A DNA stretch of 37,281 bases from Planctomycetota bacterium (GTDB lineage: Bacteria; Planctomycetota; UBA8108; UBA1146). Numbering within the stretch: the first letter of the stretch is position 1; every line of letters begins with the position of its first letter. Below are positions 17,219 through 37,281 of the stretch, piece after piece. Made by a program: the position numbers and the translations under genes. The stretch spans positions 1 through 37,281 of the forward strand of contig JAPKAM010000015.1 of NCBI GenBank assembly GCA_028825265.1. The letters run 5' to 3'. The notes beneath the pieces were generated by a model that was given only the letters and a program-made list of their open reading frames with translations, was not told where the DNA came from and ran no database searches.

Positions 17219-18223
17219 TCAGGAAAACTGCTGGAGGAACCTGACATCATTCTCGTAGAGGTAACGAATATCGGGAATATTGAAGGAAGCCATGGTGACC
17301 CGTTCAATCCCCAGCCCGAAAGCGAATCCAGTCCACCGTTCCGGGTCGATCCCCACTGATTGGAGTACGTTTGGATCGACCATCCCGCACCCTCCCATCT
17401 CCATCCAGCCACCACGCCAGTATAGATCCACTTCTGCGCTCGGCTCGGTGAAGGGGAAGAAGGAAGGTCTCAATCGAAGTTTCATTGCGTCGTCTTGCAA
17501 CAGCTGCTGAAAGAAGGTCAACAAGGTCGCCTTGAGATGACCGAAGGTCATCCCCTCGTCCACCACCAATCCCTCGAGTTGATTGAACATGTAGGAGTGA
17601 GTGGCATCGACTGTATCGGGCCGAAACACCTTACCTGGAGCGATGATCCGCAAGGGAGGAGGCGTACTCTCCATCACCCGAACCTGCACCGTCGAAGTTT
17701 GGCTGCGCATCAGCAGGTCATCTTCGAGGTAGAAGTTTTCGGCCGGATCCCGTGCGATGTGATCGACCGGGATGTTGAGTCCAGTGAAGTTATGCCACTC
17801 GTCCTCGACCTCCGGACCATCGACGACCTGGAAACCTAGATTCCCAAAGATCCGAATCATCCGAGATGCGACCTGATGGACAGGATGGCGGCTGCCTCGC
17901 TGAGGCATTTGGCCCGGAAGGGTGACATCGGTGGCGCGTCGCGCCGCCGTAGGAGCCGCCTTCGATCCACTGCCCAATCGACCCTTGGCCTCTTCGAGAG
18001 CGGTTCCGACTCGTTCCTTGACGACATTGACCCGTGCACCAAAGGAGGCGCGTTGCTCTGGAGGGAGGGCTCCCAGTGAGCGGAGAACCTGCTTCAGGGT
18101 GCCCTTTTTACCCAGAATCCCGACACGAACCGATTCCAAACTGGAGCCATCTGAGGCCTGCTCGATCGCCTGTAATGCGTCCGCCTCGATGCGATCTAGA
18201 TCCACCTGGGATCCCTCGCTCAT
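17219..18223 (-). CDS. pheS: Phenylalanine--tRNA ligase alpha subunit
   Basis: Catalytic chain of PheRS. It has an N-terminal coiled-coil (residues 1-90) and then the class II core: HNFTGLNIPVDHIARD, the motif-2 region RIIAPGKVFRPDTVDATHSYMFNQLEGL, FRPS-like LRPSFFPFTEPSAEVD, and motif 3 GFAFGLGIERV. 334 residues, normal. The ATG shares ATGA with the rplT stop, so the two are likely translationally coupled. Confidence 0.97.
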   Translation of the reverse strand: MSEGSQVDLDRIEADALQAIEQASDGSSLESVRVGILGKKGTLKQVLRSLGALPPEQRASFGARVNVVKERVGTALEEAKGRLGSGSKAAPTAARRATDVTLPGQMPQRGSRHPVHQVASRMIRIFGNLGFQVVDGPEVEDEWHNFTGLNIPVDHIARDPAENFYLEDDLLMRSQTSTVQVRVMESTPPPLRIIAPGKVFRPDTVDATHSYMFNQLEGLVVDEGMTFGHLKATLLTFFQQLLQDDAMKLRLRPSFFPFTEPSAEVDLYWRGGWMEMGGCGMVDPNVLQSVGIDPERWTGFAFGLGIERVTMASFNIPDIRYLYENDVRFLQQFS

Positions 18224-21632: not shown

Positions 21633-24600
21633 CTACGCCAAGGTGGAGTTTCGGCCACCTTTCCCGGAAAGAGATCCACTGGCCAGATCTGACACGCCAA
21701 GAAGCGTGGCCATCTCGCTCCAGCGGATGCCCTTCGGGGCATTGGCCAGCCACCGCTCAATCTCAGCCATGGCCGCATTGCGTAACTTCTGTCCTGCATG
21801 CAAATCGCCGGCTTGTTCTCGTACCTGGGCCCACCAGAACAGTACCGAGGCATGGCCCAACCGAGTTTCAAGGCGAACCACCCGCTTCCAGGCATTCCGT
21901 GCGATCCGTTCCTTTTCCTCCAGCGATGCGGAAACACTTCTTTCCAGCGACAACCAGGTCGAGATCGGTTGTGCTCGCAATCGAAGTGCATCCAGTGCAG
22001 CGGCTTCAAGCCAATGATTGGCCTTCTCGAATTGGCGCCGCCTCATCCATATCCGTCTTCGATCCAGTGCCTTGCGTGCTCTGCGCAATCCGAAGGGTTC
22101 CGGGTCGGAACCCGGTTCTGGAATCGCCCCGGGTGCAATCCTGCGTCGCTCAGTCTGAGCCAGCGCATTCTTACCAACACGATCGAGCAAGTCGACTCGT
22201 TCTCTACGCAGTGCTCCAAGATCTCGGTCTGTACCTCGTACTCGCAATGAAGTGAGTCCACGATCGAGCAAGCTCATCGCTTCTGAAAGTTGACCCAGCG
22301 ACATCGCACAGCGGCTTTCAAGGATGATGTGCCGAGCGTGGACGTCGATCGCCTCTTGCTCGTGGGGCGCACGATGAGGAGGTGTCGCTTGTAGAATTTG
22401 ACGCGCGGTTCGTGGTCGACCAGCCGCAAGTTCCGAAGCCGCCACCAGCAGATTGCCTTCCCAGGAGACGATCCCTGCCGGTCCGTCGAGGACCAATGCC
22501 TCTTCGAGACAGCGTGAGGCTCCCTTGATCCAGCCGGCTCCCGCTTCGCAGCGAGCCAGCAAGAGTAGTGCCCGGGGTAACTGACCTCGACAATGTTTCC
22601 TGGCCTCGACCACCAGTGGCGAGATTTCCTTCAACACCAGTGCCTCTTCCCCCAGCCGCAGGGAAGCCTCGGCAGCTTCGATCGCCGCCACAACGGCGGC
22701 CTCTAATCGATGCTCCTGGCGACAGATGTGATGATGCCATCGGCTCCAGATCCGCAGTGAACGCAAATCCTCCATGGCTCTCGCTTTCAGGCATTGGGCC
22801 TCGGCGATATGACGGGAGTGAGAGGTCGCCACCGCCTCCGCAAGTATCTGCTCGGAGAGATCCAGTGCTTGCAATCGCGCTCCCCTGGCCAGGGCACTGC
22901 GGCAGCGCTCCAGTCGGACTTCGTTGATCATCTCGTCGAGGCACTCGGAGTCCTCCGGTTCAAAGGCGGGAGCGGGACCCGCGCCACGCCTGGCCAAAGT
23001 GCGGAGGATTCGTGACCTTTCGATGGCCACTCGGCTCCGCTCGCGTTTGCTCTCCAGATCATCGTTGATCGGGATGATCACTTCATCGAGCAGTGCCAAA
23101 GCCGTTCGTGGATCCCCATCTCGACGGGTGGTCTCGGCTCTGCGACGTGCCAACCGCAATGAAGCCACGCTACCGAGCTGCTGATTTCTGGCAGAGATTC
23201 TCCAGGCACGATCGCGTTGTGAAGGATGCCCCAGTTGATCTTCAACCAGACCGAGCAACTCCGCCCAACGAGCGACTGACGATTCGCAAAGCAGGTCGAC
23301 CAGTGGTCCCAGTAAATCTGAAAGGCGTGCCGCATCACGTAGAATCAGTGCCTCATCATCGAGCCAAGGCTCAAGACTACGAGCCGCCAGTTGCGGCTGC
23401 CCCGCACTCAAACGGTGATGGGCCACATCCAATCGATCGAGCCCCTCGAGTTCTGCAGCAAGTTGATGTAATGCTCTTCTCCGATCGGGATCGAGTCGCA
23501 GCAGTACCCCTTCCGACTGAAAAGGTTCCCGCCAGTGCAGGCCACCATCGATGCGAATCCAATTGTGCTGAACCAATCCAGCAGCGATCGACGGCATCGA
23601 TCCCAACGGGATGGATGCCACCTGCGCCACCGCATGACCTGCAGCCGGAGCACCGAGCACTGCCAGTGCCTCGAGCAAGGAACGATCGTCTACTGGTAAT
23701 CTCTGACACTCCTCCCCGACACGATCTCGCCAGCGATCCTCTGGATGGTCAGCGGACTGATTCCAGATCCACCGCTGGCCATCATGGCTCAGCTCCCCGC
23801 TCCGAACTCGTCCGATGAGAATTCGCTCCCAGATCGAGGGACTTCCTGCGCCCCACTGGACCAGACGCCGTTGGAGCTTGGACTCGACTCCTCCGCCGGG
23901 AAGGGCGACTTCGAGCCAGCGATCCAGGTCGATGGATGGAAGGTGATCGGTACTCACTATGGTCGGTTGGCGGTTCGCCAGTGATGAACCGACATACCCT
24001 CCGGGCATCGTTGGGCTGTCGATCCACCAGAGCAATTTGCAAGAGTTGAGCTCGCTCCACTGCAGCGCCTCGTGGAGTTCCGGATTGCCGGCCCCAGGGT
24101 CCTCGATTTTCACCACCACAGTGGTCAATCCCCTGTGAATCGATTGGGACAACTGCTGACGAAGATCGGGGTCAATGCAATTCAACTCGATCACCGGCAG
24201 CCCAGCAGTCATCAGACGGGTTCGAACTCGATTCGAGATCTTGCGACGATCTCCTTCTCGGCGATGGAGATGCACCACGGTGCCACCCTGATCACGGCGC
24301 TCTAACAATGCACCGAGCAGCAGATCTGGCAATTCAGATCCGATTCCTGGATAACTCAATTGTGCCGCGAGGGATTCGATCGATTCCGCCTGACATCCTC
24401 CCGGTTCCCCGGGAAAGGAACGCTGTAGGGTGGCCAGCACCTCACCGGCGTGGAACGGTCGATCGTCGGGTCGCTTCTCTAGCATCTTCTCGATCAGCCG
24501 CTGTGCTGGATCGGGCAATCCAGGCCTGAAATCAGCGATGGGGGTCGGTTCTTCCTGTATGTGCGCTCGCCCCAACTCGGATCGATCGACACACTGAAAT

Positions 24601-25247
24601 GGCAACTCTCCACACCACCACTGATAAAGGAGCACACCCATCGAATAGATGTCGCCGCGTGCGTCGGGGCGTTCCCCGAGCCACTGCTCCGGGGGCATCG
24701 CATGGGGCGTTCCGAGGATCTTCTCCTCGACCGGATGTCCTTCTCGTTGGCACAGACCGAAGTCGAGTAGTACCGGCTCTAGATCGGTGGACTGCCGGAT
24801 CACTTTCCTCAGCCGAACATTGTCAGCCTTGAGATCACCGTGAACCCATCCATTTCGATGCAAGAAGGCGAGCGCCTGCAGGATGGGACGAGCCATCCAC
24901 AACCACTCGGCAAACGACAATGAACCGGCGAGATCGGTGGAGACCGGGCCGCTCAGCACCTCACTACTGAACCACCGGGCTCCATCGTGGGCATCGATCC
25001 CGTAATCATGAACCGCCAGGATCGAAGGATGTCGAAGCCGGCACAGATGCTCATATTCCCGTTGATGGCGCTGACCGATGGGACCGCCCGACTCCTCGGG
25101 AGAAACTCGTTTGATCGCCACCGGCTCGCGCTGAATCGAGTCGATACAGTGCCAGACCTCCCCCATTCCTCCTCGTCCGAGAAGAGATTGAGGGATGAAA
25201 CGACCCGAGATCGGCCGCTTCTCACTGGAACAGTCCTGCTGGGCCAC
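21633..25247 (-). CDS. Ser/Thr protein kinase with degenerate STAND-like ATPase and helical-repeat tail
   Basis: Cytosolic Hanks-type kinase. The kinase domain (about 16-275) has the glycine loop GRGGMG (24-29), Lys46 in VAIKRV, HGDLKADN with Asp138 and Asn143, DFG at 162-164 and PPE at 185-187, so it looks catalytically competent. Residues 300-560 resemble the STAND ATPase modules often fused to such kinases. Where a Walker A would lie (about 327-336) there is HRREGDRRK instead of GxxGxGKS, while a Walker-B-like VVVKIED remains. Residues 570-1190 are Arg/Leu/Ala-rich helical repeats, probably TPR-like. The GTG start follows AGGAG by 4 bases. 1204 residues. The target is unknown. It lies directly upstream of aspS and may be co-transcribed with it. 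Confidence 0.85.
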   Translation of the reverse strand: MAQQDCSSEKRPISGRFIPQSLLGRGGMGEVWHCIDSIQREPVAIKRVSPEESGGPIGQRHQREYEHLCRLRHPSILAVHDYGIDAHDGARWFSSEVLSGPVSTDLAGSLSFAEWLWMARPILQALAFLHRNGWVHGDLKADNVRLRKVIRQSTDLEPVLLDFGLCQREGHPVEEKILGTPHAMPPEQWLGERPDARGDIYSMGVLLYQWWCGELPFQCVDRSELGRAHIQEEPTPIADFRPGLPDPAQRLIEKMLEKRPDDRPFHAGEVLATLQRSFPGEPGGCQAESIESLAAQLSYPGIGSELPDLLLGALLERRDQGGTVVHLHRREGDRRKISNRVRTRLMTAGLPVIELNCIDPDLRQQLSQSIHRGLTTVVVKIEDPGAGNPELHEALQWSELNSCKLLWWIDSPTMPGGYVGSSLANRQPTIVSTDHLPSIDLDRWLEVALPGGGVESKLQRRLVQWGAGSPSIWERILIGRVRSGELSHDGQRWIWNQSADHPEDRWRDRVGEECQRLPVDDRSLLEALAVLGAPAAGHAVAQVASIPLGSMPSIAAGLVQHNWIRIDGGLHWREPFQSEGVLLRLDPDRRRALHQLAAELEGLDRLDVAHHRLSAGQPQLAARSLEPWLDDEALILRDAARLSDLLGPLVDLLCESSVARWAELLGLVEDQLGHPSQRDRAWRISARNQQLGSVASLRLARRRAETTRRDGDPRTALALLDEVIIPINDDLESKRERSRVAIERSRILRTLARRGAGPAPAFEPEDSECLDEMINEVRLERCRSALARGARLQALDLSEQILAEAVATSHSRHIAEAQCLKARAMEDLRSLRIWSRWHHHICRQEHRLEAAVVAAIEAAEASLRLGEEALVLKEISPLVVEARKHCRGQLPRALLLLARCEAGAGWIKGASRCLEEALVLDGPAGIVSWEGNLLVAASELAAGRPRTARQILQATPPHRAPHEQEAIDVHARHIILESRCAMSLGQLSEAMSLLDRGLTSLRVRGTDRDLGALRRERVDLLDRVGKNALAQTERRRIAPGAIPEPGSDPEPFGLRRARKALDRRRIWMRRRQFEKANHWLEAAALDALRLRAQPISTWLSLERSVSASLEEKERIARNAWKRVVRLETRLGHASVLFWWAQVREQAGDLHAGQKLRNAAMAEIERWLANAPKGIRWSEMATLLGVSDLASGSLSGKGGRNSTLA

Positions 25248-25261
25248 GAGACTCCTGATTC

Positions 25262-25284
25262 ACGGGAGAAGGTGCTTCTCCCGT
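25262..25284. promoter_or_regulatory. Perfect 10-bp hairpin upstream of the kinase gene
   Basis: ACGGGAGAAG (25262-25271), loop GTG, CTTCTCCCGT (25275-25284) forms an uninterrupted 10-bp inverted repeat 15 bases upstream of the kinase start, just before its ribosome binding site. No T-run follows on either strand, so it is not a standard terminator. It could be an operator or an RNA hairpin controlling the kinase mRNA. Confidence 0.5.
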
Positions 25285-25334
25285 CTAATTCTACGACGAT
25301 CTGGTGAATTCGTCCGCCTGCCCGATGCCACGGG

Positions 25335-25356
25335 CGATGGGGACTCGACCCCATCG
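25335..25356. promoter_or_regulatory. Second inverted repeat in the kinase/cytochrome gap
   Basis: CGATGGGG-ACTCGA-CCCCATCG is a perfect 8-bp stem with a 6-base loop in the 208-base divergent gap. No T-run follows. A weak candidate promoter for the cytochrome gene (TGGCTT at 25375, 16 bases, TAAAAT at 25397) lies downstream. Function is unknown. Confidence 0.4.
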
Positions 25357-25455
25357 AACATCTGGCTTCTCCGGTGGCTTCTCCTGCGGTTACCGATAAA
25401 ATGGAAGCCAGTCGCTTCAGCACCTTCTCAGAAGCCCAATAGTGAGGTTCTATCG

Positions 25456-28005
25456 ATGTCCCAGCCTCCGCTCCCTCGATTCAGAATCGGACCCGCCTCA
25501 CTCAAATTCAGACCATCGCAGCGAGTCCAACGGCCCATCACTCAAGTTCCCATCGCCCAAGTTCCCATCGCCCAACCCCCCATCAGCCCACTCCCCATCG
25601 GCTGGTGGACTCGAATGATGCTCACCCTGCTGGTGCTGTTTCCGGTGCAACTGGTCGAAGGCCAGGTCTCGGGGATCGTCATCGACAGCAGCACCCAGAA
25701 TGCCATCCCCGGAGCCTTGGTGACCTGGCAAACTACACTGCAACAAACCGTCGCCGCCGCTGACGGGACCTTCATTCTGGAAGGGGTGAGCGGCACCTTG
25801 CTGGTCATCGCTGGGGCCAGTAAAGGCTACTACAACTCGACCGTTCTCGTCACCACGCCCGGCACCTCGGTGATGATTGAACTCGATCCAGTGCCAGTCG
25901 CCGACGATCCCTCGTACTCATTCGTGATTCCAGACCAGTGTTCGGTGTGTCATCCAGATCAGTACACCCAGTGGGAGCCATCCCGGATGGCGATGACCGG
26001 TCTCAACTCATGGGTCTACGACCTGTACGACGGTACCGGATCTGCCGGAGGTAGTGGCGGCTTCGTCTATACCGTTGATTCTGCTCATGCCGCGGCCGAT
26101 CCATCGGGGCACTGCGCCTCCTGCCACCAGCCAGAAGGTTGGATCGCGAACCCGTTGCAACCACTCGATCCGCTGTCAGGCCCTCTCACCGATGCCCAAC
26201 GTCGTGGTGTCTCGTGCGAAACCTGTCACAAGATCGCCTCGGTCAACGAGAGCCAGATCGACGCCACCGGATTCATCCCTGGCGCTGTGACGGTCACTCG
26301 CCCCGATACCAGCGGCCTGATTGAACAGGTGATGTACGGCTTGCTGGGGGATGTCGATTTCAATCTGGTGAACCAGATGCGAGGCAGTTACCAGCCACAA
26401 CTGGCTGCCGAAGCGTGTGCCGTGTGCCACGAGTACAACAACGATCCAGACCACGACAACGATTTCAACGAGAGCAGTAGCGTCGCCGCCCAAGAGACTT
26501 ATTCGGAGTGGAAGAACTCACCCTACGGCGACCCTCAAGATTCTCAGTATCAAAGTTGTGTGGATTGCCACATGCCACCCTTCTCCGATGTCCCGGTCGA
26601 AGCGTGCGCAGCATTGTTTCCCCCATTGCTGAGAGAGCCCAGTACCGTTCACACCCATGACATCCGCGGAACCACTGCGGAGTTTCTCGACAACGCAGTA
26701 ACGATGACTCTCTCGGCTCGACAAGTCGGAGACGAACTGGTCGTCGATGTGCAAATCGTCAATGATCAGACGGGACACTCGGTTCCGACCGGGGTGACCC
26801 TCAGAAACATGCTCCTGAAGATCGAAGCGACCGGGCCTGGAAGCCAGTCGTTGACGCAGACCTCAGGTGACACGATCCACTCCCTCGGAGGCATCGGGGA
26901 CGCCACCACTGGCCACTTCGCTGGGCTTCCCGGGAAGTTATTTGCCAAGGTCAACCAAGACACCTCCGGCAATCTAGGGGTGCTCTTCACCGAAGCCACG
27001 TCCATCGTGTTCGACACCCGCATCGCGCCGCTGGCCACCGACAATACCAGCGCAGTCTTTGACATCAGTGGAATCAACGGCGACGTCAATCTCGCAGCTC
27101 GCTTGATTTATCGAAGAGCCCCCCGCGCTCTGCTCGATGCCAAGGGCTGGATCACCGATGGACTCGGTCAGACACTCGCCGATGCTCAGGCACCCCACTT
27201 CGGGCATCTGATGGAATCGAGCGATCTGTCAGTGACCGTCTCTTCCGCGCCTCCAAGTTTCCTATTCCAACTCCCGCCGCTGGTGATCGGGAGCGAGGCC
27301 ATCGCGGAGTTTCAGATTCAGCAGGTTTCAGGGTCTCCCCTCGATTGTGGAGCCTTTGCCGTCGCCGTCGCTCATGATCCGACCCTTCTCACTCCCAACC
27401 AAGTGAGCGGATCGGCCCTGCTGACCGACCTCGACGCAGGAACCGGACCCGATTTCTTCGAGATCAGCCTGTACCCCGGTGGCTGGACCGCAGCGGTGGT
27501 CTTTGACTTCCTGCTCATCGACACATTGCAATTCACCGGTGTCTCTACGGTGCTGACCACTACCTACACCGATCTGGGGATCGACCCGACTGCGCCGCCG
27601 ACCGGAAACATCCTGACCTTTGCCGATGATCTGGGGGTCCCTCCCGTCACCAATCTGGTCTCTTCTGCGGCAGGACAGGGGTTCTTTCCCACCTTCTCCC
27701 AATCATCCGAAATCATCTTCATCGACGACCCCTCCTTCAGCCGCGGCGATTGCAATGCCGATGGGCTGATCGACATCGGCGATCCGATCTATACTCTCGG
27801 TTTCCTGTTCGGCTCGATCGGCTCATTGCCCTGTAATTCCAGTTGCGACTCCAACGATGATGCGCAGATCGATATCGCCGATCCGATTGTAATCCTCTCC
27901 TTGCTCTTCTCGGGTGGGGATCCACTGCCTCCACCAACCTTGCCGATCTGCGCTGCAGACCCGACCCCGGATGGCCTCGACTGTAACAATTACTTCTGTC
28001 CCTGA
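25456..28005 (+). CDS. Secreted pentaheme cytochrome c with regulatory-like and dockerin-like domains
   Basis: Exported multiheme protein. A hydrophobic export segment (LTLLVLFPVQLVEG) is followed by a carboxypeptidase-regulatory-like beta domain (VSGIVIDSSTQNAIPGALV). Five heme-c sites follow: CSVCH (25939), CASCH (26113), CETCH (26215), CAVCH (26416) and CVDCH (26557). A beta-rich section with TGHSVPTGVTLRN and a longer beta region come next. The C-terminal dockerin-like pair has two EF-hand-type loops (GDCNADGLIDIGDP and CDSNDDAQIDIADP). The ATG at 25456 gives 849 residues and an unusual 50-residue leader. ATG at 25615 or 25618 would place the export signal at the N terminus. It probably works in periplasmic or surface electron transfer; substrate unknown. 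Confidence 0.85.
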   Translation: MSQPPLPRFRIGPASLKFRPSQRVQRPITQVPIAQVPIAQPPISPLPIGWWTRMMLTLLVLFPVQLVEGQVSGIVIDSSTQNAIPGALVTWQTTLQQTVAAADGTFILEGVSGTLLVIAGASKGYYNSTVLVTTPGTSVMIELDPVPVADDPSYSFVIPDQCSVCHPDQYTQWEPSRMAMTGLNSWVYDLYDGTGSAGGSGGFVYTVDSAHAAADPSGHCASCHQPEGWIANPLQPLDPLSGPLTDAQRRGVSCETCHKIASVNESQIDATGFIPGAVTVTRPDTSGLIEQVMYGLLGDVDFNLVNQMRGSYQPQLAAEACAVCHEYNNDPDHDNDFNESSSVAAQETYSEWKNSPYGDPQDSQYQSCVDCHMPPFSDVPVEACAALFPPLLREPSTVHTHDIRGTTAEFLDNAVTMTLSARQVGDELVVDVQIVNDQTGHSVPTGVTLRNMLLKIEATGPGSQSLTQTSGDTIHSLGGIGDATTGHFAGLPGKLFAKVNQDTSGNLGVLFTEATSIVFDTRIAPLATDNTSAVFDISGINGDVNLAARLIYRRAPRALLDAKGWITDGLGQTLADAQAPHFGHLMESSDLSVTVSSAPPSFLFQLPPLVIGSEAIAEFQIQQVSGSPLDCGAFAVAVAHDPTLLTPNQVSGSALLTDLDAGTGPDFFEISLYPGGWTAAVVFDFLLIDTLQFTGVSTVLTTTYTDLGIDPTAPPTGNILTFADDLGVPPVTNLVSSAAGQGFFPTFSQSSEIIFIDDPSFSRGDCNADGLIDIGDPIYTLGFLFGSIGSLPCNSSCDSNDDAQIDIADPIVILSLLFSGGDPLPPPTLPICAADPTPDGLDCNNYFCP
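25543..25572 (+). repeat. 15-bp exact tandem duplication in the cytochrome leader
   Basis: CAAGTTCCCATCGCC occurs twice in a row and encodes QVPIA QVPIA, within a Pro/Ile-rich stretch that continues as AQPPISPLPIG. It lies between the two possible start codons, so it is either a repeat in an N-terminal extension or in the 5' untranslated region. Confidence 0.8.
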
Positions 28006-30307: not shown

Positions 30308-30933
30308 TCACCACGGACAGAACTCGATTGCGGAGACCAAGCCGCCCATGGTCGCTGACCATGCTAATGATCTTACCAGTTTTGGTCGGCAATGGTTGTG
30401 AAGGAACAGCCACTTCACGGCGAACCGATTCCGCGACATCTGCCGGAGTACAACGCTTGGAACAAACTCTCTGGAGTCCGACCCTCCACTGGAATGGAGT
30501 GCGATTCAGATTCGAATTGATCCCTGGACAGAAGAAGTTGGAACCGAAATTTCTCCATGATGGACCGCGCGACATCCTCAGCATCGGGGATCGACAGGTC
30601 CAACTGATCCGGACCCGCTTCAAGGTCGGAGAGAGTCTCTACAACTGGACCAAGGAGAGCGTCATTCTGATTTACCGGATCCCTGATCGACAGCGCCCCT
30701 TCTCTCGACGGCAGGGCTCCTTACAACTGACCTGGATCGGCGATGGGAAGAATCCTGTGGTCGAGGAACAGCAACAGGACGGCACCATCGTGTGGACCCT
30801 CGCCAACGCTCGAGTCACCCGCGACCCGCAAGGGACGGTGCTCTACCAAGGCCGGGGTCCAGACCTAAGCAGGAGTGGTCCGTGGAATCTCCTCATCGAT
30901 GCCAGGGGCGAACGGGTCGAGGATTCCAGATGA
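30304..30933 (+). CDS. Exported or lipoprotein-like hypothetical protein
   Basis: Not recognised. The start is TTG at 30304, overlapping the previous stop as TTGA; ATG at 30361 is an alternative. The N terminus is Arg-rich and then hydrophobic (LTMLMILPVLVGNGCEG), with a Cys that could be a weak lipobox. The rest is beta-rich. 209 residues. The stop shares ATGA with the rlmN start, indicating translational coupling. No known catalytic motif is seen. Confidence 0.6.
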   Translation: MITTDRTRLRRPSRPWSLTMLMILPVLVGNGCEGTATSRRTDSATSAGVQRLEQTLWSPTLHWNGVRFRFELIPGQKKLEPKFLHDGPRDILSIGDRQVQLIRTRFKVGESLYNWTKESVILIYRIPDRQRPFSRRQGSLQLTWIGDGKNPVVEEQQQDGTIVWTLANARVTRDPQGTVLYQGRGPDLSRSGPWNLLIDARGERVEDSR

Positions 30934-32039
30934 AGGACCTGAATCTGGATGAAGAGCATCTTTTCGATCATCCTCCGGACCAGATCGACACGCTCCTCAA
31001 GCACTGGTGCCAGCAACAGCAACAACCCGCCTTTCGAGCAAAACAGATCCGCCAGCATCTGATCGATCAACGCACCTACGATCCCTCCGAGATGACCTCG
31101 TTGCCGGCGGAACTGCGGAAGCAACTGTCAGAGGGAATCCTCCGCTCTCCACTGGCCATCGCTGACCAGTTAATATCGACCGACGGGACCATCAAGTTCC
31201 GTTTTATGCTGGAAGATGGTCTCTCCATCGAGTCCGTCTGGATTCCCACCGATGATCGAGGAACCCTTTGCCTCTCCAGCCAGGTCGGCTGCGCTGCCGG
31301 GTGCACTTTCTGTGCCACCGGAACCATGAAATTGACACGCAACCTTCACCCCCGGGAGATTGTCGCCCAGTGGTTAGCGGTGCATGCAACCACCGTGGCG
31401 CAAGGACTTTGTGGAGTCACCCAGGTCGTGTTCATGGGGATGGGAGAACCGCTCCACAATTACCCGTCCGTCTCCCGTGCCATCGACTGGTTCTCATCGG
31501 CTCAAGGATTCCAATTCAGCCCCCGCAGGATCACCGTCTCGACCGTTGGAATCGTTCCTAAGATCGAGCAACTGGTTCAGGATCACCCGCAAGTGCGCCT
31601 CGCCGTCAGCCTCCACAGTGCCATCCCGGAGACCCGCAACGCCATCGTTCCGATCAACCTTCACCACTCCATCGAGGAACTCTCCGACATGCTGGTGAAG
31701 ATTCGCGACGACTCACGTAGGATCAGTATCGAGTACGTGGTACTTCCCGGCATCAATGACGGTCCCATCGAAGCCAAGGCTCTGGCCCATTTTGCAAGCC
31801 AGTGCGGCGCTCACATCAACCTGTTGCCGTTTCATCCCTACGAGGGTGCGCTATACCCCGCCGCTGGAGCTGCGGAGGTGGGAAAGTTTCAGTCGCTGGT
31901 GCAGAAAAACTACGAGGGGTCGGTCACGGCCCGGCGCAGCCGAGGGCTCGACATCGACGGAGCCTGCGGTCAGCTAGTACTGAAGAATCTAAAGGGGCCA
32001 ACGACACCCAACGACCCCGATCCAGCGCCTCCTCAATAA
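30930..32039 (+). CDS. rlmN: Dual-specificity 23S rRNA/tRNA methyltransferase RlmN
   Basis: Radical-SAM enzyme that makes 2-methyladenosine at A2503 of 23S rRNA and at A37 of some tRNAs. The SAM-binding cysteines are Cys121, Cys125 and Cys128 (CAAGCTFC), with MGMGEPLHNY, the RITVSTVGIVPKIEQL segment and the C-terminal catalytic Cys346 in DIDGACGQL. 369 residues, normal. The ATG at 30930 overlaps the preceding stop as ATGA; longer frames upstream lie inside that gene. Confidence 0.96.
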   Translation: MKDLNLDEEHLFDHPPDQIDTLLKHWCQQQQQPAFRAKQIRQHLIDQRTYDPSEMTSLPAELRKQLSEGILRSPLAIADQLISTDGTIKFRFMLEDGLSIESVWIPTDDRGTLCLSSQVGCAAGCTFCATGTMKLTRNLHPREIVAQWLAVHATTVAQGLCGVTQVVFMGMGEPLHNYPSVSRAIDWFSSAQGFQFSPRRITVSTVGIVPKIEQLVQDHPQVRLAVSLHSAIPETRNAIVPINLHHSIEELSDMLVKIRDDSRRISIEYVVLPGINDGPIEAKALAHFASQCGAHINLLPFHPYEGALYPAAGAAEVGKFQSLVQKNYEGSVTARRSRGLDIDGACGQLVLKNLKGPTTPNDPDPAPPQ

Positions 32040-32107: not shown

Positions 32108-33286
32108 TTAGCGTCCATCTCCCACTGGATCCGGAGTCGGAACTGGCACTGGTTTGGGAGTCGGTTTTGGAGCCGGTTTCGGCTTGGGCTTCTCCCAGAC
32201 GGGCTTCTTCGGTTTCGGCTTGGGCTTCTCCCAGACAGGCTTCTTTTCGCTATCCTCGGGAGTGGCTTCCTTGGCCGCTTCCTTGGCACGCTCCGCCTCT
32301 CGCTCACGACGGACTTCATCGAAGGAGCGACCTTCCGGACGTCCGAACTTGGTCGATGAAACCCCTGCGTTGAGAGCGATCTCGTCGTAGTTCTGTTCGA
32401 GGCTCAACTCTCCATCCTCGAAGATCTTCTTGGTGGTCGCAGTTTTGACCCAGCGAGCGCGATCGTCGCTGAATCGGATTCGGGTGTACTCGCTGAAGAA
32501 CACCTCCTTCTTGACCACAGCCGGAGCCTGCCCCTCGCTCCATGTCTTGCTCAGCAGCAATCCGTCATCGCTGGAGAAGGCATAGGTCAGCACCTGGTTG
32601 CCGGCAAACGCCTTCAACTCAACCGTCTTACACGGAGTACCGAGAACTTCTCCATCTTCCTTGAGGCTAGCGATGTAGCCGTTCTCTTCGAAGGTGATGA
32701 AGAAATCGTCGATATGCTTGTCCCAGACGAAAACGATGAGGGTCTTGCCTGCCAGCGGTGAAACCGCGCCCATGGCCTTGACCCACGCTTTTTCGCCGTC
32801 GTACACCTGAACAAAAGTGAGAGGCTCGTTATTCTTGGTCAAACCAAGACCCGGAAGCTGCCACTCTTCACGAATCATCAAGACACCTTCTCCGGTACGC
32901 TTGAGGAATCGAGCCATCTTCATGACGGTCTCGCTGGTGGGATCAATCTTCTTGTTCTTGAATCGCTCGACCCGATCCGCGATCGACAACAAGGTCTCGC
33001 GCCCACCGATGGCATCGAGGTAACGCTGGATCACCTCGAGTGCTGCCGGCTCACTGGCCGGAATGCCCGCATCACCACCGAGGATGTCATCGATCCCCCC
33101 AAGGATGTCATCGTCTTCTGCGACCGGCTCTTTCGCTTCGTCAGACTGTCCCTCTACGGGAGTCGGATCTTGAAACAAAGCAAACGCCTGGGCGTGATCA
33201 TTGGTGGCCAACGCGTTGGCCAAGACGATGACCAGTAACAACATGAGTCCGGATAGGTATTTTCCGACACTAAATCCACGCTTCAT
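32108..33286 (-). CDS. Exported LolA/MucB-like protein with Lys-Pro-rich tail
   Basis: The N-terminal signal peptide is MKRGFSVGKYLSGLMLLLVIVLANALA. An acidic linker with a small repeat (DDILGGIDDILGGD) leads to a beta-rich domain from about residue 85 to 320. Its opening (ALEVIQRYLDAIGGRETLLSI) is the pattern common in LolA/MucB-like periplasmic proteins; this assignment is by resemblance only. The C-terminal 70 residues are Glu/Lys-rich and then a Lys-Pro tail with two exact 12-residue units (KKPVWEKPKPKP), reminiscent of wall- or envelope-spanning linkers. 392 residues. The ATG overlaps the stop of the small upstream ORF as ATGA, and the intrinsic terminator follows. Confidence 0.75.
   Translation of the reverse strand: MKRGFSVGKYLSGLMLLLVIVLANALATNDHAQAFALFQDPTPVEGQSDEAKEPVAEDDDILGGIDDILGGDAGIPASEPAALEVIQRYLDAIGGRETLLSIADRVERFKNKKIDPTSETVMKMARFLKRTGEGVLMIREEWQLPGLGLTKNNEPLTFVQVYDGEKAWVKAMGAVSPLAGKTLIVFVWDKHIDDFFITFEENGYIASLKEDGEVLGTPCKTVELKAFAGNQVLTYAFSSDDGLLLSKTWSEGQAPAVVKKEVFFSEYTRIRFSDDRARWVKTATTKKIFEDGELSLEQNYDEIALNAGVSSTKFGRPEGRSFDEVRREREAERAKEAAKEATPEDSEKKPVWEKPKPKPKKPVWEKPKPKPAPKPTPKPVPVPTPDPVGDGR
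32175..32246 (-). repeat. 36-bp in-frame tandem repeat
   Basis: Two 36-bp units (32175-32210 and 32211-32246) differ by about one base and each encode KKPVWEKPKPKP in the tail of the exported protein. The length is a multiple of three, so copy-number change would keep the frame. Confidence 0.85.
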
Positions 33287-33495
33287 CTCAAGTGGTCCTT
33301 TCTGGGAATCGAACTGTTGAGCAGCTCGAACTCTAGCCCGTGATCAATCCTGTCGAGCCAACCTTGAGGCTCAGCAGGGGGAGGTCGACTCAGAGTATCC
33401 AGTGACCGACGGATTTCGGAATCGATCCCGACAGGATACTCGCGATCCAGTCTCGGGTCAAAACGACCCGGAAACGCCATTGTGGGTCTCTTCAT
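33283..33495 (-). CDS. Small hypothetical protein coupled to the exported protein gene
   Basis: Not recognised. About 70 residues, polar, Pro- and Arg-rich (RRSLDTLSRPPPAEPQGWLDRIDHGLEFELL), no membrane segment. Its stop overlaps the downstream ATG as ATGA and its start lies within the last bases of the protease gene, filling the gap between them exactly. Start candidates are GTG 33501, ATG 33495 and ATG 33483; the last has a weak GAAGAGA upstream. The coupling argues for a real gene, but length and lack of homology leave doubt. Confidence 0.45.
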   Translation of the reverse strand: MKRPTMAFPGRFDPRLDREYPVGIDSEIRRSLDTLSRPPPAEPQGWLDRIDHGLEFELLNSSIPRKDHLR

Positions 33496-34771
33496 GACCA
33501 CTGGAGGCGGGAACCGGGGTCACCATTGGATGCGGATCCATGAGATGGGCGAATCCCTCCCGCCGCAGCCACGATCGAACCGTCTGCATCGGCACAAAGA
33601 GCCCCATATGAGGGACCACCATTGGAGATCTTTTACCGTAGGTGTAAATCATGCTGCTGATCCCGACCAACTGTCCTTCATTGGCGAGGAAAATACCGCC
33701 TCCTGAATTTCCGAAGAAAGTCGGAGCGCTGACCATCCAGAAGATCTCATCTCCAACCGGCTTGTACTGAGAGGAAATCTCGCCGTAGGTCGGCAGCGGT
33801 TGGTTTCCGAGCGGACAACCCACTGCGTAAACGGTGTCAAAAACAGACAACTTCAAGCAAACAGGCTCGCTGGCGGTTTCTGCGATGTAGAGCCAAGGGG
33901 ATTTCCGATCGACTCTCACCAAGGAAAGATCGGAGCCCTTCAGGGAAGCGATCTCCACTCCGCGGAAGGCCTCACTACCGAGGCGCCCGATCTGAGGGTC
34001 GAAGAAACGAATCTCATCGACCACGACCTCATCGCTGGAGAAGTCTCTCACCTCTTCGACGACATGGTAGGCGGTCACAATCCAAGTGGCCCATAGATTG
34101 CCATCGACCGCTTCACTGCTGACCACAACACCACTACCGACCGTCCCGTTGCCCCTCAACTGCACGATCGGGTAGATCATCCGCTCGACCTTGTGCTGCT
34201 GACTGGAAACGATGGGTGGACGCGGGAGAGATTCAACAGTGGGAACCATCGATTCGATTCTGGCTTCGATCCGTGAATCCAGATCCTCGATCGTCTGGCG
34301 GGTTCGATCGATCTCGGTGCCAACCCAACGCTTCAATCCATCGCTGGAGATATTCATCTGAGCCAGGATTCGCGCCCGCTCTTCCGCCAGAATGGCGGTG
34401 GTGAAAGGAGCATTCGTGACCCTTTCGCCCGAATCACTCACCTCATCGAGAATCACCGCGTCCAGTTCATCGAAGGCGGGCATCACGGGGGAAGAAGGGG
34501 CGGAGATGGTGGGATCGAGAGCCTCGCCCATTTCTTGAGAAGCGAGGAAGGAGTCATGCCCCAGGGCGCTGACCACCTCGACGCGACCCTCTTGGTAGGC
34601 CGAAAAACCCCAGGCCCCCATCGCAGCGACACCGATCATCAGGATGCTTCGTAAATGTGCATGTAACAGCAATTTTCCCCCGTTCCGGTGCGAGACCTTC
34701 CCGCTACCGTGCGGCCCTCCGAACAGGCTGACCCACAGAGGAGAATACGATGCGATGGGAGAGACGGGCAA
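33458..34771 (-). CDS. Membrane-anchored trypsin-like serine protease
   Basis: S1/HtrA-type protease domain facing the periplasm by inference. A hydrophobic anchor (RSILMIGVAAMGAWGFSAY) is followed by an acidic linker, a predicted coiled coil (residues 140-180) and the catalytic domain. The triad is visible as His236 (TAYHVV), Asp281 (SDLSLVRVD) and Ser356 (GNSGGG), numbering from the TTG at 34771. No PDZ domain is seen. TTG at 34672, with GGGGGAAAA directly upstream, gives a shorter N terminus beginning just before the anchor and is at least as likely. It follows the LeuRS-like gene after 64 bases. The substrate is unknown. Confidence 0.82.
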   Translation of the reverse strand: MPVSPIASYSPLWVSLFGGPHGSGKVSHRNGGKLLLHAHLRSILMIGVAAMGAWGFSAYQEGRVEVVSALGHDSFLASQEMGEALDPTISAPSSPVMPAFDELDAVILDEVSDSGERVTNAPFTTAILAEERARILAQMNISSDGLKRWVGTEIDRTRQTIEDLDSRIEARIESMVPTVESLPRPPIVSSQQHKVERMIYPIVQLRGNGTVGSGVVVSSEAVDGNLWATWIVTAYHVVEEVRDFSSDEVVVDEIRFFDPQIGRLGSEAFRGVEIASLKGSDLSLVRVDRKSPWLYIAETASEPVCLKLSVFDTVYAVGCPLGNQPLPTYGEISSQYKPVGDEIFWMVSAPTFFGNSGGGIFLANEGQLVGISSMIYTYGKRSPMVVPHMGLFVPMQTVRSWLRREGFAHLMDPHPMVTPVPASSGHEETHNGVSGSF

Positions 34772-34835: not shown

Positions 34836-37281
34836 TTACGAGGGAGTGGAGACCGATTGAGGGTCGCCCCCTGGTGGCGAAGTGTAAATCAGTTTTAAGA
34901 GGCGATCGGGCACATGCACGACCCGATCTGCCGGGCGTCCCCCGGTCTTCTCCATCACCGTTTTCAGTTTCAACACCTGATCGATGACCAGATTCTTAGG
35001 AGCATCGAGATCGACGATGATTCGATCGACAATCTTCTCGTTGATCTGGACCGCCAGCGAGACCTGCGAAGGTTGGAGTAGTTCCTCGCTATGTTCGGGC
35101 CAAACTTCTTCATCGAGTCGATCAGTTTCTCCCAGGCCTTGCCACAATTCGTGAGCCATGTGCGGTGCAAAGGGAGCCAGCAGCACCACGAAGGTTTTGA
35201 GGGTCTGGCGATCCACCTCTTCCAGGCTGAGTTCATCGCTACGGAGTAACTTCACGAACTCCATGAAGGCGCTGACCGCCTTGTTGAGACGGAAGGTTCG
35301 AATCGAACGACTCACTCGGCGGATCAGCCGGTGCTTGGCCACCAGAACGTCACGACTGACAAATCGACCCTCCCCGACACGGGCGAGGATCGCTTCATGG
35401 GTCCGTTGAAGGAATCGTGCACAACCACGTAATCCCTCTTCATTCCATTCCGCATGGTCTTGGGCTTGGCCGAGGAACAACAGGTGGAGCCGCATCGCAT
35501 CGGCTCCATATCGTTCCAGGTGATCCTCCGCCAGTACACGTGGCCCACGATGGGCTGTCGCTGGATCGGAATCCTCAGAAACCTCCGCCGATCGAATTCT
35601 TCCTTGGTTAAACAATCGCCTGAACGGCTCTTCTCGCCGGGTGATTCCCAGTTCCTTGAGGAAATGGCTGATGAATCGCACGTAGAGCAGATGCAACTCG
35701 GCGTGCTCGATTCCGCCGACACACAGATTGACCGGGGCCCATTGCTGCACCAGTTCGGGGTCGGCAATCTGGTCCTTCAGGGTGGGATCCAGTGAACGAA
35801 GATGGGTCCAGCAGGAAGCGATCCAATCGGGCATCGTATCGGTACAGCGGCGGGCGGAAGCTCCACAGCTGGGACAGGAGGTTTCGATCCACTGCTGATA
35901 CTCTGCCAGCGGACTGACCCCCTCCTGTGCGGTTCCGATCTTGTCGATCTGAGGCAGTAACACCGGTAACTGATCCTCAGGAACCGGAACCTGGCCACAT
36001 TTCTCACACTCGATGATGGGAATCGGCTCGCCCCAGACTCGTTGACGATCGAAGGCCCAGTCATGCAACTTCCAGTCGACATGCGCTTCGACCAAATCCC
36101 GTGACTCCAGAGTGGCCTGGATCGAACGGGATGGATCTCCCCCTTCGCCCCCCCTACGACGACCCGATCGTCTTCTCCTTCGACCCTGGGAAGCACTGCC
36201 CAAAGAACGAGGCAAACCAAATTTCTTGGCAAAATCTTCATGCGCAGAATGGATCGAGGGGAGGCCAAGAATCGCACCGAAGCGAATTTCCGGAAGCACG
36301 TAACTACTGACCCAGATCGGCATCTTCTCGAGGGTCACAGGATTGAGACAATAGGCTCCGGTCGCGACTCCGTCGGATTCACCCCGAGAAGTCTCCCGAT
36401 CTCGTCGGGAAAGAGCCGCGCACTTCTCGATGTACTCGACGACATCGTCTTGCATCATCGGATCGATGATGTCCTTCAACAGCAGATGTTCGGGACAAAG
36501 AACCACGAAAGTCGCTTCGGCGAGAGCATCGATTCTCGAGGAAAAGACCTCCACCTCTTCCCAGCCATCGTGTAGTTCTGCACTGGCTTTGAGGGTTAGA
36601 CGAGTCCCCTCCCTGCGGCCGATCCAGTTGCGTTGAAGCAGTTTAGTCCGAGCGGGCCATTTCAACTGCTTGAGACCCGCGTGAAGCGATTCCGCATATT
36701 CGGTAATCGCCACCTTCCAGCCATTTTCGTAGCGGACCAGGCCCTTCTCATGCAACTTGAGGAAGATCCACTGCGACCAGCGATAGCAGTCTGGATCGGA
36801 ACTGTTCAGTTCATGATCCCAGTGAACCATCGCACCAAAGTAGTTCAACTGGTCTCGCATCTTCTCGATGCCGCGTTCGACCACCTGCTGCGGTGGAATT
36901 TGGGCGGCTCGTGCTTCCTCTTCGATGGAAAGGCCGAAGGAATCCCAGCCGATCGGTCGGAAGACATCGCGACCCCGCGCCTTCTGATAGCGCGCCACGA
37001 CATCATTGATGGCAATGCCGCGCAACTGATTCGCGCTGAAGCCATCCAGAGATGGATACGGAAACATGTCGAGACAATAGAAGGGGCGAAATCCGTCGCG
37101 GGAGTCCGCATCTTGCGGGTCGGTGTCCGCCGCAGATTCGGCGCGATCATTCTCACCACTATCCGGCGAAGAGAGATCGCCCGCCGACGAGACGTCTGCG
37201 GAAGGCTCAGCACTACTGGTATCTTCACTGGTATCTTCACTGGTATCTTCACTGGTATCTTCACTGGTATCTTCACTGGTA
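34836..37281 (-). CDS. LeuRS-like protein without synthetic motifs (5' end outside window)
   Basis: Collinear with bacterial leucyl-tRNA synthetase: FYCLDMFPYPS, GWDSFGL, YRWSQWIFLKLHEKGL, LLQRNWIGRREG, GAYCLNPVTLEKMPIW, DWAFDRQRVWGEPIP, GGIEHAELHLLYVRF, ERYGADAMRL, WNEEGLRG and the C-terminal VQINEK domain. Numbering from Met at 37067, HIGH is replaced by SANQ (11-14), KMSKS by PATAH (502-506) and the editing TTRPDT by SSRIDA (176-181). The editing AHDxRD is replaced by SIHSAH (271-276). The first zinc module is absent near residue 113-117. The second zinc set (Cys354, Cys357, Cys398, Cys401) remains. The frame runs unbroken to the right edge and upstream includes an acidic repeat, so the start is outside the window. 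It is unlikely to charge tRNA; I read it as a maintained pseudoenzyme paralogue rather than a functional leuS. Confidence 0.88.
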   Translation of the reverse strand, partial: TSEDTSEDTSEDTSEDTSEDTSSAEPSADVSSAGDLSSPDSGENDRAESAADTDPQDADSRDGFRPFYCLDMFPYPSLDGFSANQLRGIAINDVVARYQKARGRDVFRPIGWDSFGLSIEEEARAAQIPPQQVVERGIEKMRDQLNYFGAMVHWDHELNSSDPDCYRWSQWIFLKLHEKGLVRYENGWKVAITEYAESLHAGLKQLKWPARTKLLQRNWIGRREGTRLTLKASAELHDGWEEVEVFSSRIDALAEATFVVLCPEHLLLKDIIDPMMQDDVVEYIEKCAALSRRDRETSRGESDGVATGAYCLNPVTLEKMPIWVSSYVLPEIRFGAILGLPSIHSAHEDFAKKFGLPRSLGSASQGRRRRRSGRRRGGEGGDPSRSIQATLESRDLVEAHVDWKLHDWAFDRQRVWGEPIPIIECEKCGQVPVPEDQLPVLLPQIDKIGTAQEGVSPLAEYQQWIETSCPSCGASARRCTDTMPDWIASCWTHLRSLDPTLKDQIADPELVQQWAPVNLCVGGIEHAELHLLYVRFISHFLKELGITRREEPFRRLFNQGRIRSAEVSEDSDPATAHRGPRVLAEDHLERYGADAMRLHLLFLGQAQDHAEWNEEGLRGCARFLQRTHEAILARVGEGRFVSRDVLVAKHRLIRRVSRSIRTFRLNKAVSAFMEFVKLLRSDELSLEEVDRQTLKTFVVLLAPFAPHMAHELWQGLGETDRLDEEVWPEHSEELLQPSQVSLAVQINEKIVDRIIVDLDAPKNLVIDQVLKLKTVMEKTGGRPADRVVHVPDRLLKLIYTSPPGGDPQSVSTPS
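36153..36182 (-). other. Arg-rich insert in the LeuRS-like protein
   Basis: Residues 296-305 read RRRRRSGRRR, followed by GGEGGDPSRS, where normal LeuRS leaves the editing domain and returns to the catalytic core. Such a strongly basic, glycine-rich loop could bind RNA or acidic partners; this is inference. Confidence 0.8.
37215..37281 (-). repeat. 12-bp tandem repeat encoding (TSED)n, running off the edge
   Basis: ACTGGTATCTTC on the plus strand recurs with period 12 for about 5.6 exact copies and continues past the window. In the frame of the LeuRS-like protein it reads (TSED)n, followed by an acidic Ser/Asp-rich linker to FYCLDMFPYPS. It therefore sits where the N-terminal segment of LeuRS meets the first strand of the catalytic fold. 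Confidence 0.93.

Follow-up and report, generated by a model that had tools for sequence, protein, structure and literature searches.

A leucyl-tRNA synthetase relative stripped of its catalytic motifs at the ancestral leuS locus of a planctomycete class

The gene for an aminoacyl-tRNA synthetase is among the least expected of genes to be retired in place and yet kept, and the locus described here raises the question of how such a retirement came about and what the retired gene might now be doing. The stretch of DNA that was analysed (the window) is a contig of 37,281 nucleotides, JAPKAM010000015.1 of assembly GCA_028825265.1, from an uncultured class of Planctomycetota whose named records are all metagenome-assembled genomes (MAGs). 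At one of its ends lies a gene for a protein with the build of a bacterial leucyl-tRNA synthetase (LeuRS) that lacks the HIGH, KMSKS and editing motifs and is referred to below as pseudo-LeuRS. Its retirement can be traced at one locus through 29 species and three depths of decay, with a working substitute in each genome of good completeness; the replacement of an essential translation enzyme, and the use made of its old body, thereby become testable. The job of this conserved look-alike is most likely new, non-enzymatic and built around a helical domain of the tRNA-binding type.

Lost and kept motifs in an open frame

The pseudo-LeuRS frame occupies 34836..37280 on the minus strand and encodes 814 residues without a stop, its 5' end lying open at the end of the contig. 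The protein is LeuRS-like over its full length, with similarity far above chance. It matches the bacterial model TIGR00396 (leuS_bact) with E=5.9e-176 and a score of 587 bits, the curated threshold being 548, a Thermus LeuRS matches it at E 6.7e-140, and Pfam recognizes CP1 editing, class I core and Anticodon_1 domains. The archaeal-type model TIGR00395 scores only 84 bits against a cut-off of 648, which marks the protein as one of bacterial type. A first-pass annotation, made from the letters of the window, had described an end-to-end LeuRS alignment free of stops, and the open frame and the profile score bear this out. The same score sets a trap for annotation, in that the window copy and several others pass the NCBI equivalog cut-off and would be called leucine--tRNA ligase.

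The motifs tell a different story. The HIGH site reads SANQ (37026..37037), the KMSKS site PATAH (35550..35564), the Thr-rich editing motif TTRPDT reads SSRIDA (36525..36542) and the editing motif AHDxRD reads SIHSAH (36240..36257), all on the minus strand; when recomputed from the translation, these four readings and their positions agreed exactly with those of the first pass. Kept on the same strand are GWDSFG with the leucine-pocket Asp (Asp80 of Thermus thermophilus and Escherichia coli LeuRS; 36933..36950) and, in the synthetic site, GGIEHAELH (35691..35717), an instance of the segment GGxEHxxxH.

Relatives were compared by genome (G), genus (g) and planctomycete family (f), with f1 to f6 falling within the window's class. 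Across the window's order HIGH is replaced by FS(V/A)(N/S)Q, the form found in f1/f2, or by a near variant (LSVNQ in G016), a count that excludes G008, whose HIGH region lies beyond its contig. KMSKS is gone in every relative of the order, and both motifs are missing in all orthologues that cover those sites. Sequencing error as the source of the losses was ruled out by the matching replacements throughout the order's relatives. The leucine-pocket segments MFPYPS, GWDSFG and GGxEHxxxH are kept in f1/f2 and lost in f3-f6. The f3-f5 proteins are more eroded, being without HIGH, KMSKS and GGxEH, and their second Rossmann half carries a large acidic insert; the zinc-1 domain has been deleted from pseudo-LeuRS in genera g1, g4 and g5.

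The 5' end of the window gene requires some care. Full-length relatives begin with an N-terminal LeuRS-type helix (e.g. MGVDLRDLEKRWQEMW), and between this helix and the Rossmann core sits an acidic linker of Ser, Thr, Glu and Asp, 50-200 residues long. The window contig breaks off within the part of this linker encoded as (TSED)n by a 12-bp tandem repeat (37215..37281, minus strand; 5.6 copies, 100%), and the break is probably repeat-driven, given so perfect a repeat. No contig carrying the rest of the 5' part was found in the window genome assembly. The ATG at 37067, which would give a protein of 743 residues, is not the start codon; it encodes an internal Met, the first residue of MFPYPS.

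Distribution and the ancestral locus

Pseudo-LeuRS is present in 16/16 genomes of the window's family and in the sole other genome of its order. A first search of the class, with the window protein as query, had suggested restriction to that order, a view overturned by a class search with TIGR00396, by a dedicated profile (A1) and by synteny in f6. The A1 profile, which represents the C-terminal half of both pseudo groups (the order's forms and those of f3-f5), was run on 392 genomes of the phylum; 27 class genomes scored 269-340 bits and everything else, that is, working LeuRS, at most 175 bits. Both f6 genomes gave no A1 match, yet they hold a third, extremely eroded form directly upstream of the protease gene that follows pseudo-LeuRS elsewhere in the class. 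This form is clearly homologous to both, and more strongly to the other pseudo forms (E=9e-85 against their profile) than to LeuRS (E=5e-56 against its profile), at 272 vs 177 bits. All told, the gene occurs in 29/29 class genomes and in 0/363 sampled genomes outside the class, where the A1 profile would miss any form like that of f6. Two MAG records, QNYK01000062.1 ('Bacillota') and JAFMMO010000118.1 ('Proteobacteria'), also carry the class-specific pseudo-LeuRS; their titles look wrong, since the records correspond to contigs of G004 and G002, two genomes from the window's planctomycete family.

Working leuS genes lie elsewhere in the same genomes. The first-pass annotation had proposed looking for a second, intact leuS in the window genome, and one was found at G000:C43:2269-4668 with GLHVGH, TTRPDT, GHDQRD and RKMSKR in place. 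Of the class genomes, 16 are at least 90% complete, and in every one of these an intact leuS accompanies pseudo-LeuRS; none was seen in the assemblies of G016, G017, G019, G023 and G026, which are 55-80% complete. The working LeuRS of f3-f5 runs to about 1000 residues with large insertions, and its KMSKS site reads KMGKS in G022.

The position of pseudo-LeuRS proved to be as informative as its sequence. Transfer RNA genes at the class loci were located with Rfam and ARAGORN. A tRNA-Ala gene (anticodon GGC; CGC in one) lies divergently upstream of pseudo-LeuRS in every one of the 18 scanned class loci with enough sequence, spanning f1-f6, as exemplified by the tRNA-Ala(GGC) at L051:12328-12403. 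In five class loci a tRNA-Leu(CAA) gene is found about 5-7 kb further, past NfeD1b-NfeD-FloA. Searched for a riboswitch or T-box upstream of pseudo-LeuRS, Rfam gave only tRNAs and one piece of a group II intron. No tRNA gene adjoins the working leuS in any of 18 loci within the class. Outside the class it is a working leuS that diverges from tRNA-Ala(GGC); pairs no more than about 0.8 kb apart were seen in 29 genomes from at least eight families (f24, f25, f32, f45, f47, f59, f64 and f72). Positions of leuS and tRNA-Ala in these families were compared by hand, and in G286 and G189 the placement of leuS rests on the position of its C-terminal half plus the length of the frame. Because there are only one to three tRNA-Ala matches per genome of 2-10 Mb, the likelihood of chance adjacency is negligible. 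Divergence of leuS from tRNA-Ala(GGC) appears to be an old arrangement in Planctomycetota, and since working leuS adjoins this tRNA gene outside the class, pseudo-LeuRS sits at the phylum's frequent leuS place. Class-wide, it occupies the ancestral planctomycete leuS locus.

Neighbouring tRNA genes bring to mind a residual or unusual synthetase, one that would charge tRNA-Leu or the adjoining tRNA-Ala or make an adenylate for some other purpose. The proximity of tRNA-Ala(GGC) and tRNA-Leu(CAA) favours such an activity, as do the TIGR00396 cut-off passed by the window protein and the precedent of the Sulfolobaceae LeuRS-I, which is reported to form Leu-AMP without aminoacylation (PMC9437257). 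That said, both class I ATP-binding motifs are gone in every orthologue and a complete LeuRS is encoded elsewhere, and we consider residual charging or adenylate synthesis very improbable.

The LeuRS tree separates the pseudo forms from all working LeuRS by a branch with 100 support, on long branches and with an uncertain depth. The tree places the working leuS genes of f1, of f3-f5 and of f6 apart from one another, a scatter to be expected had working copies been acquired or relocated at a later time. A model in which pseudo-LeuRS is a copy of the order's present leuS was rejected by the approximately unbiased (AU) test (delta lnL 50.9, p-AU 0.0105) and by the locus. The first-pass proposal that the protein derives from the lineage's own leuS survives in the sense that the gene holds the ancestral leuS locus beside tRNA-Ala(GGC); a sister relation to the present leuS does not survive that test. 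Rather than a copy of the present gene, pseudo-LeuRS appears to be the ancestral leuS, demoted without leaving its site, and three stages of erosion (f1/f2, f3-f5 and f6) are laid out at one orthologous locus. Most likely, we infer, charging passed to a second leuS, and the resident gene was kept although it lost catalysis where it stood.

Shifted constraint and the conserved gene cluster

One might still suspect a decaying gene or an artefact of assembly or sequence, particularly as the window contig ends within the gene at a tandem repeat and the 5' part is missing from the assembly. The orthologues refute this, and we give it almost no chance. The same replacements recur in independent MAGs from many studies, the gene is in all 29 class genomes, and its frames are open. 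Between close species (pairs with unsaturated synonymous divergence, dS) the ratio of nonsynonymous to synonymous change (dN/dS, or omega) is 0.02-0.12 for the folded core, a range that excludes a decaying copy and is like that of working leuS, for which these pairs give 0.04-0.13 and all pairs taken together 0.02-0.13; in the linker it is 0.3-0.8. An AlphaFold2 model of pseudo-LeuRS has the full LeuRS fold, with a predicted local distance difference test (pLDDT) score of 88.0 and a predicted template modelling (pTM) score of 0.79, the input being a 35-row alignment in which some rows were working LeuRS, and these may have favoured the fold. Its best match in the PDB is the tRNA-bound Thermus LeuRS 2bte (TM-score 0.84). 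The substitution rates and structure prediction that the first pass had asked for both came out strongly in favour of its central claim of a maintained pseudoenzyme, alongside the presence of the gene throughout the class and the intact second leuS.

Within the protein, the pattern of constraint has shifted. The helical anticodon-binding-type domain and the C-terminal domain, both of the tRNA-binding type, are retained, and in the window they form the most constrained part, with a family signature of its own (34884..35507, minus strand). Compared over the same genome pairs, the helical domain has an identity of 0.75 in pseudo-LeuRS vs 0.73 in working LeuRS and is the sole domain to match working LeuRS in conservation; the corresponding values are 0.72 vs 0.87 for RossA, 0.56 vs 0.73 for CP1, 0.63 vs 0.83 for RossB and 0.56 vs 0.67 for the C-terminal domain. 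Among the large domains, it alone has the two pseudo subfamilies clearly closer to each other (0.43) than each is to its own working LeuRS (0.34 and 0.25). Sites were called pseudo-specific if at least 90% conserved in the f1-f5 pseudo forms and rare in working LeuRS, and 22 of 29 such sites fall in the helical domain, including the new family motif G[KR][FY]VS[RL]xxLVxKH, present in the window as GRFVSRDVLVAKH (35331..35369, minus strand). Net charge of this domain has moved from -9 to -13 in working LeuRS to between -3 and +7, and that of CP1 from -11 to -20 to between -2 and +8; in the window CP1 contains an Arg-rich insertion, GRRRRRSGRRR (36153..36185, minus strand), in a region of low model confidence. 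Selection is now strongest on the helical domain, which has shed negative charge and gained new conserved residues. In LeuRS this is a domain that contacts tRNA.

The pocket residues kept in f1/f2 bear on one of the roles suggested in the first pass, that of a leucine sensor. The pocket would bind leucine or a leucine analogue without ATP chemistry and signal to a partner, and the survival of MFPYPS, GWDSFG (Asp80) and GGxEHxxxH despite the loss of HIGH and KMSKS agrees with such a role in those two families. Tyr507 (T. thermophilus numbering), however, is Thr in the window's own genus, and f3-f5 and f6 have lost the pocket segments yet keep the gene and its cluster. Neither leucine nor ATP can therefore underlie a function common to the class, and leucine sensing, which could apply to f1/f2 only, is improbable even there.

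Pseudo-LeuRS heads a class-wide gene cluster. Next come a gene for a membrane-anchored trypsin-like protease (33458..34771, minus strand) and one for a secreted protein with a LolA/RseB-like fold (32108..33286, minus strand), and the convergent rlmN (30924..32039, plus strand) closes the cluster. The protease follows on the same strand in 25 of 26 f1-f5 loci, the contig ending at the gene in the 26th, and in both f6 loci; it combines an N-terminal hydrophobic segment with a Trypsin_2 domain in which the catalytic His236, Asp281 and Ser356 are invariant. The secreted protein, encoded on the same strand after the protease in 22 loci and in the same order in f6, has a signal-like N-terminus, a beta-rich body and a Lys-Pro-rich tail. 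It has no Pfam or NCBIfam match, and its model (pLDDT 72) finds its best PDB folds in DUF1329, LolA and RseB. A search of 199 genomes found it only in the class; both f6 loci have it as well. On the other side of pseudo-LeuRS, NfeD1b, NfeD and FloA diverge in f1-f4.

The reading that we prefer, and to which we assign a probability of about 0.5 on the strength of sequence comparisons and models, is that a non-catalytic LeuRS-derived protein has been kept as a tRNA- or RNA-binding regulator or scaffold. Of the first-pass suggestions, the best fit would be a tRNA sensor or scaffold, given the shift of constraint to the helical domain, and it is on this domain that the class-wide function most plausibly rests. 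The second leuS would have taken over the charging of tRNA-Leu, and the resident synthetase, freed from catalysis, would have been kept as an RNA-binding regulator or scaffold, with tRNA-type RNA the most likely ligand. Binding would be through the helical domain and CP1, in a contact that the disordered acidic linker or insert may tune. More weakly, we hypothesize a link to the downstream pair, in which pseudo-LeuRS would work with the envelope protease and the LolA/RseB-fold protein so that proteolysis in the envelope would respond to a signal from tRNA or translation. The whole sequence of events, with a later-acquired leuS taking over and the ancestral resident leuS, demoted in place, becoming an RNA-binding regulator that feeds such a signal into an envelope-protease operon, is offered more tentatively than the binding role itself.

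Several observations weigh against RNA binding and against the link to the protease. RNA binding is deduced from constraint and charge, and a surface that is uncharged or basic might just as well bind a lipid or an acidic protein. In f6 most of the new helical-domain motif is gone, and the protein may work differently there. Members of the protease family are also found in other classes, where pseudo-LeuRS is absent; tried as a marker for further pseudo-LeuRS genes outside the class, the family led to none, and the 20 neighbourhoods inspected held no LeuRS-like protein, secreted LolA/RseB-fold protein, RlmN, NfeD or FloA. Finally, the whole neighbourhood (tRNA-Ala, NfeD, FloA, rlmN, dprA) is conserved, so the tandem order is suggestive and no proof of a shared pathway.

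Some of these points would suit a protein-protein or membrane scaffold, that is, an adaptor without RNA binding for the protease/LolA-fold module or for the FloA/NfeD microdomain genes, with the helical domain as its docking surface. The conserved cluster with a membrane-anchored protease and a secreted LolA/RseB-fold protein, the adjoining divergent NfeD1b-NfeD-FloA genes, and a loss of negative charge that would also suit phospholipids or acidic partners are all compatible with such an adaptor. Yet the LeuRS-like protein showed no transmembrane segment, the protease and the secreted protein are predicted to act across the membrane from it, and the neighbourhood is conserved with unrelated housekeeping genes included. 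We regard this adaptor as rather unlikely, though a better candidate than a leucine sensor, and retain RNA binding as the preferred role.

Three further genes of the window deserve mention. The pheT gene (15124-17184, minus strand) matches positions 157-798 of TIGR00472, some 156 N-terminal profile positions being missing, and its product apparently lacks the N-terminal tRNA-binding domain; pheS is next at 17219-18223. A putative multihaem cytochrome-like protein of 936 residues, with weak MtrC/Cytochrome_C554 matches, is encoded at 25195-28005 (plus strand), and a protein of 1204 residues with a Ser/Thr kinase domain at 21633-25247 (minus strand).

Comparison with known systems

Pseudo-LeuRS shares its whole fold and domain order with bacterial LeuRS (TIGR00396; T. 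thermophilus 2bte, E. coli 4aq7 and Agrobacterium radiobacter AgnB2 5ah5). The leucyl-specific domain is absent from it, as from the order's own working leuS and from AgnB2, an active LeuRS that lacks this domain (PMC5059758). It differs from bacterial LeuRS in being without HIGH, KMSKS and editing residues and in having an acidic linker, a new helical-domain motif and a helical domain that is not acidic.

The downstream pair, a membrane-anchored trypsin-like protease and a secreted protein of LolA/RseB fold, recalls DegS/RseB envelope-stress modules. The likeness is one of resemblance only: no PDZ domain was found, and no RseA or sigma factor was seen adjacent to the pair.

Two archaeal proteins are also second copies of LeuRS. 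As reviewed in PMC9437257, LeuRS-I of Sulfolobaceae makes Leu-AMP and binds tRNA without charging it, and LeuRS2 of Halobacteria keeps a low charging activity. Like pseudo-LeuRS, these are degraded second enzymes beside a working one, with proposed non-translational roles; unlike it, they have not lost catalysis to the same extent, and no demotion at an ancestral locus is described for them in the text consulted. Pseudo-LeuRS does not belong with LeuRS-I, being of bacterial type and having lost HIGH and KMSKS.

The functionally nearest analogue is SLIMP, a paralogue of insect mitochondrial SerRS. According to the same review (PMC9437257), SLIMP is a synthetase paralogue without aminoacylation that keeps tRNA binding, in its case to tRNA-Ser, and it associates with LON protease. 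It is, however, a eukaryotic class II protein that dimerises with the working SerRS, whereas LeuRS is a monomer. HisZ, EpmA/PoxA, GluQ-RS and other bacterial paralogues are likewise synthetase-derived proteins with new roles. HisZ and EpmA belong to class II, and EpmA and GluQ-RS are truncated cores that use adenylates, unlike a near-full-length class I protein devoid of ATP motifs. The first pass had known of no bacterial family of this kind, and the literature searched, a limited collection of papers, likewise yielded no bacterial class I synthetase pseudoenzyme like pseudo-LeuRS. Pseudoenzymes derived from aminoacyl-tRNA synthetases are already known; what is new here is one that is near full length, class-wide and seated at the ancestral locus of the synthetase itself.

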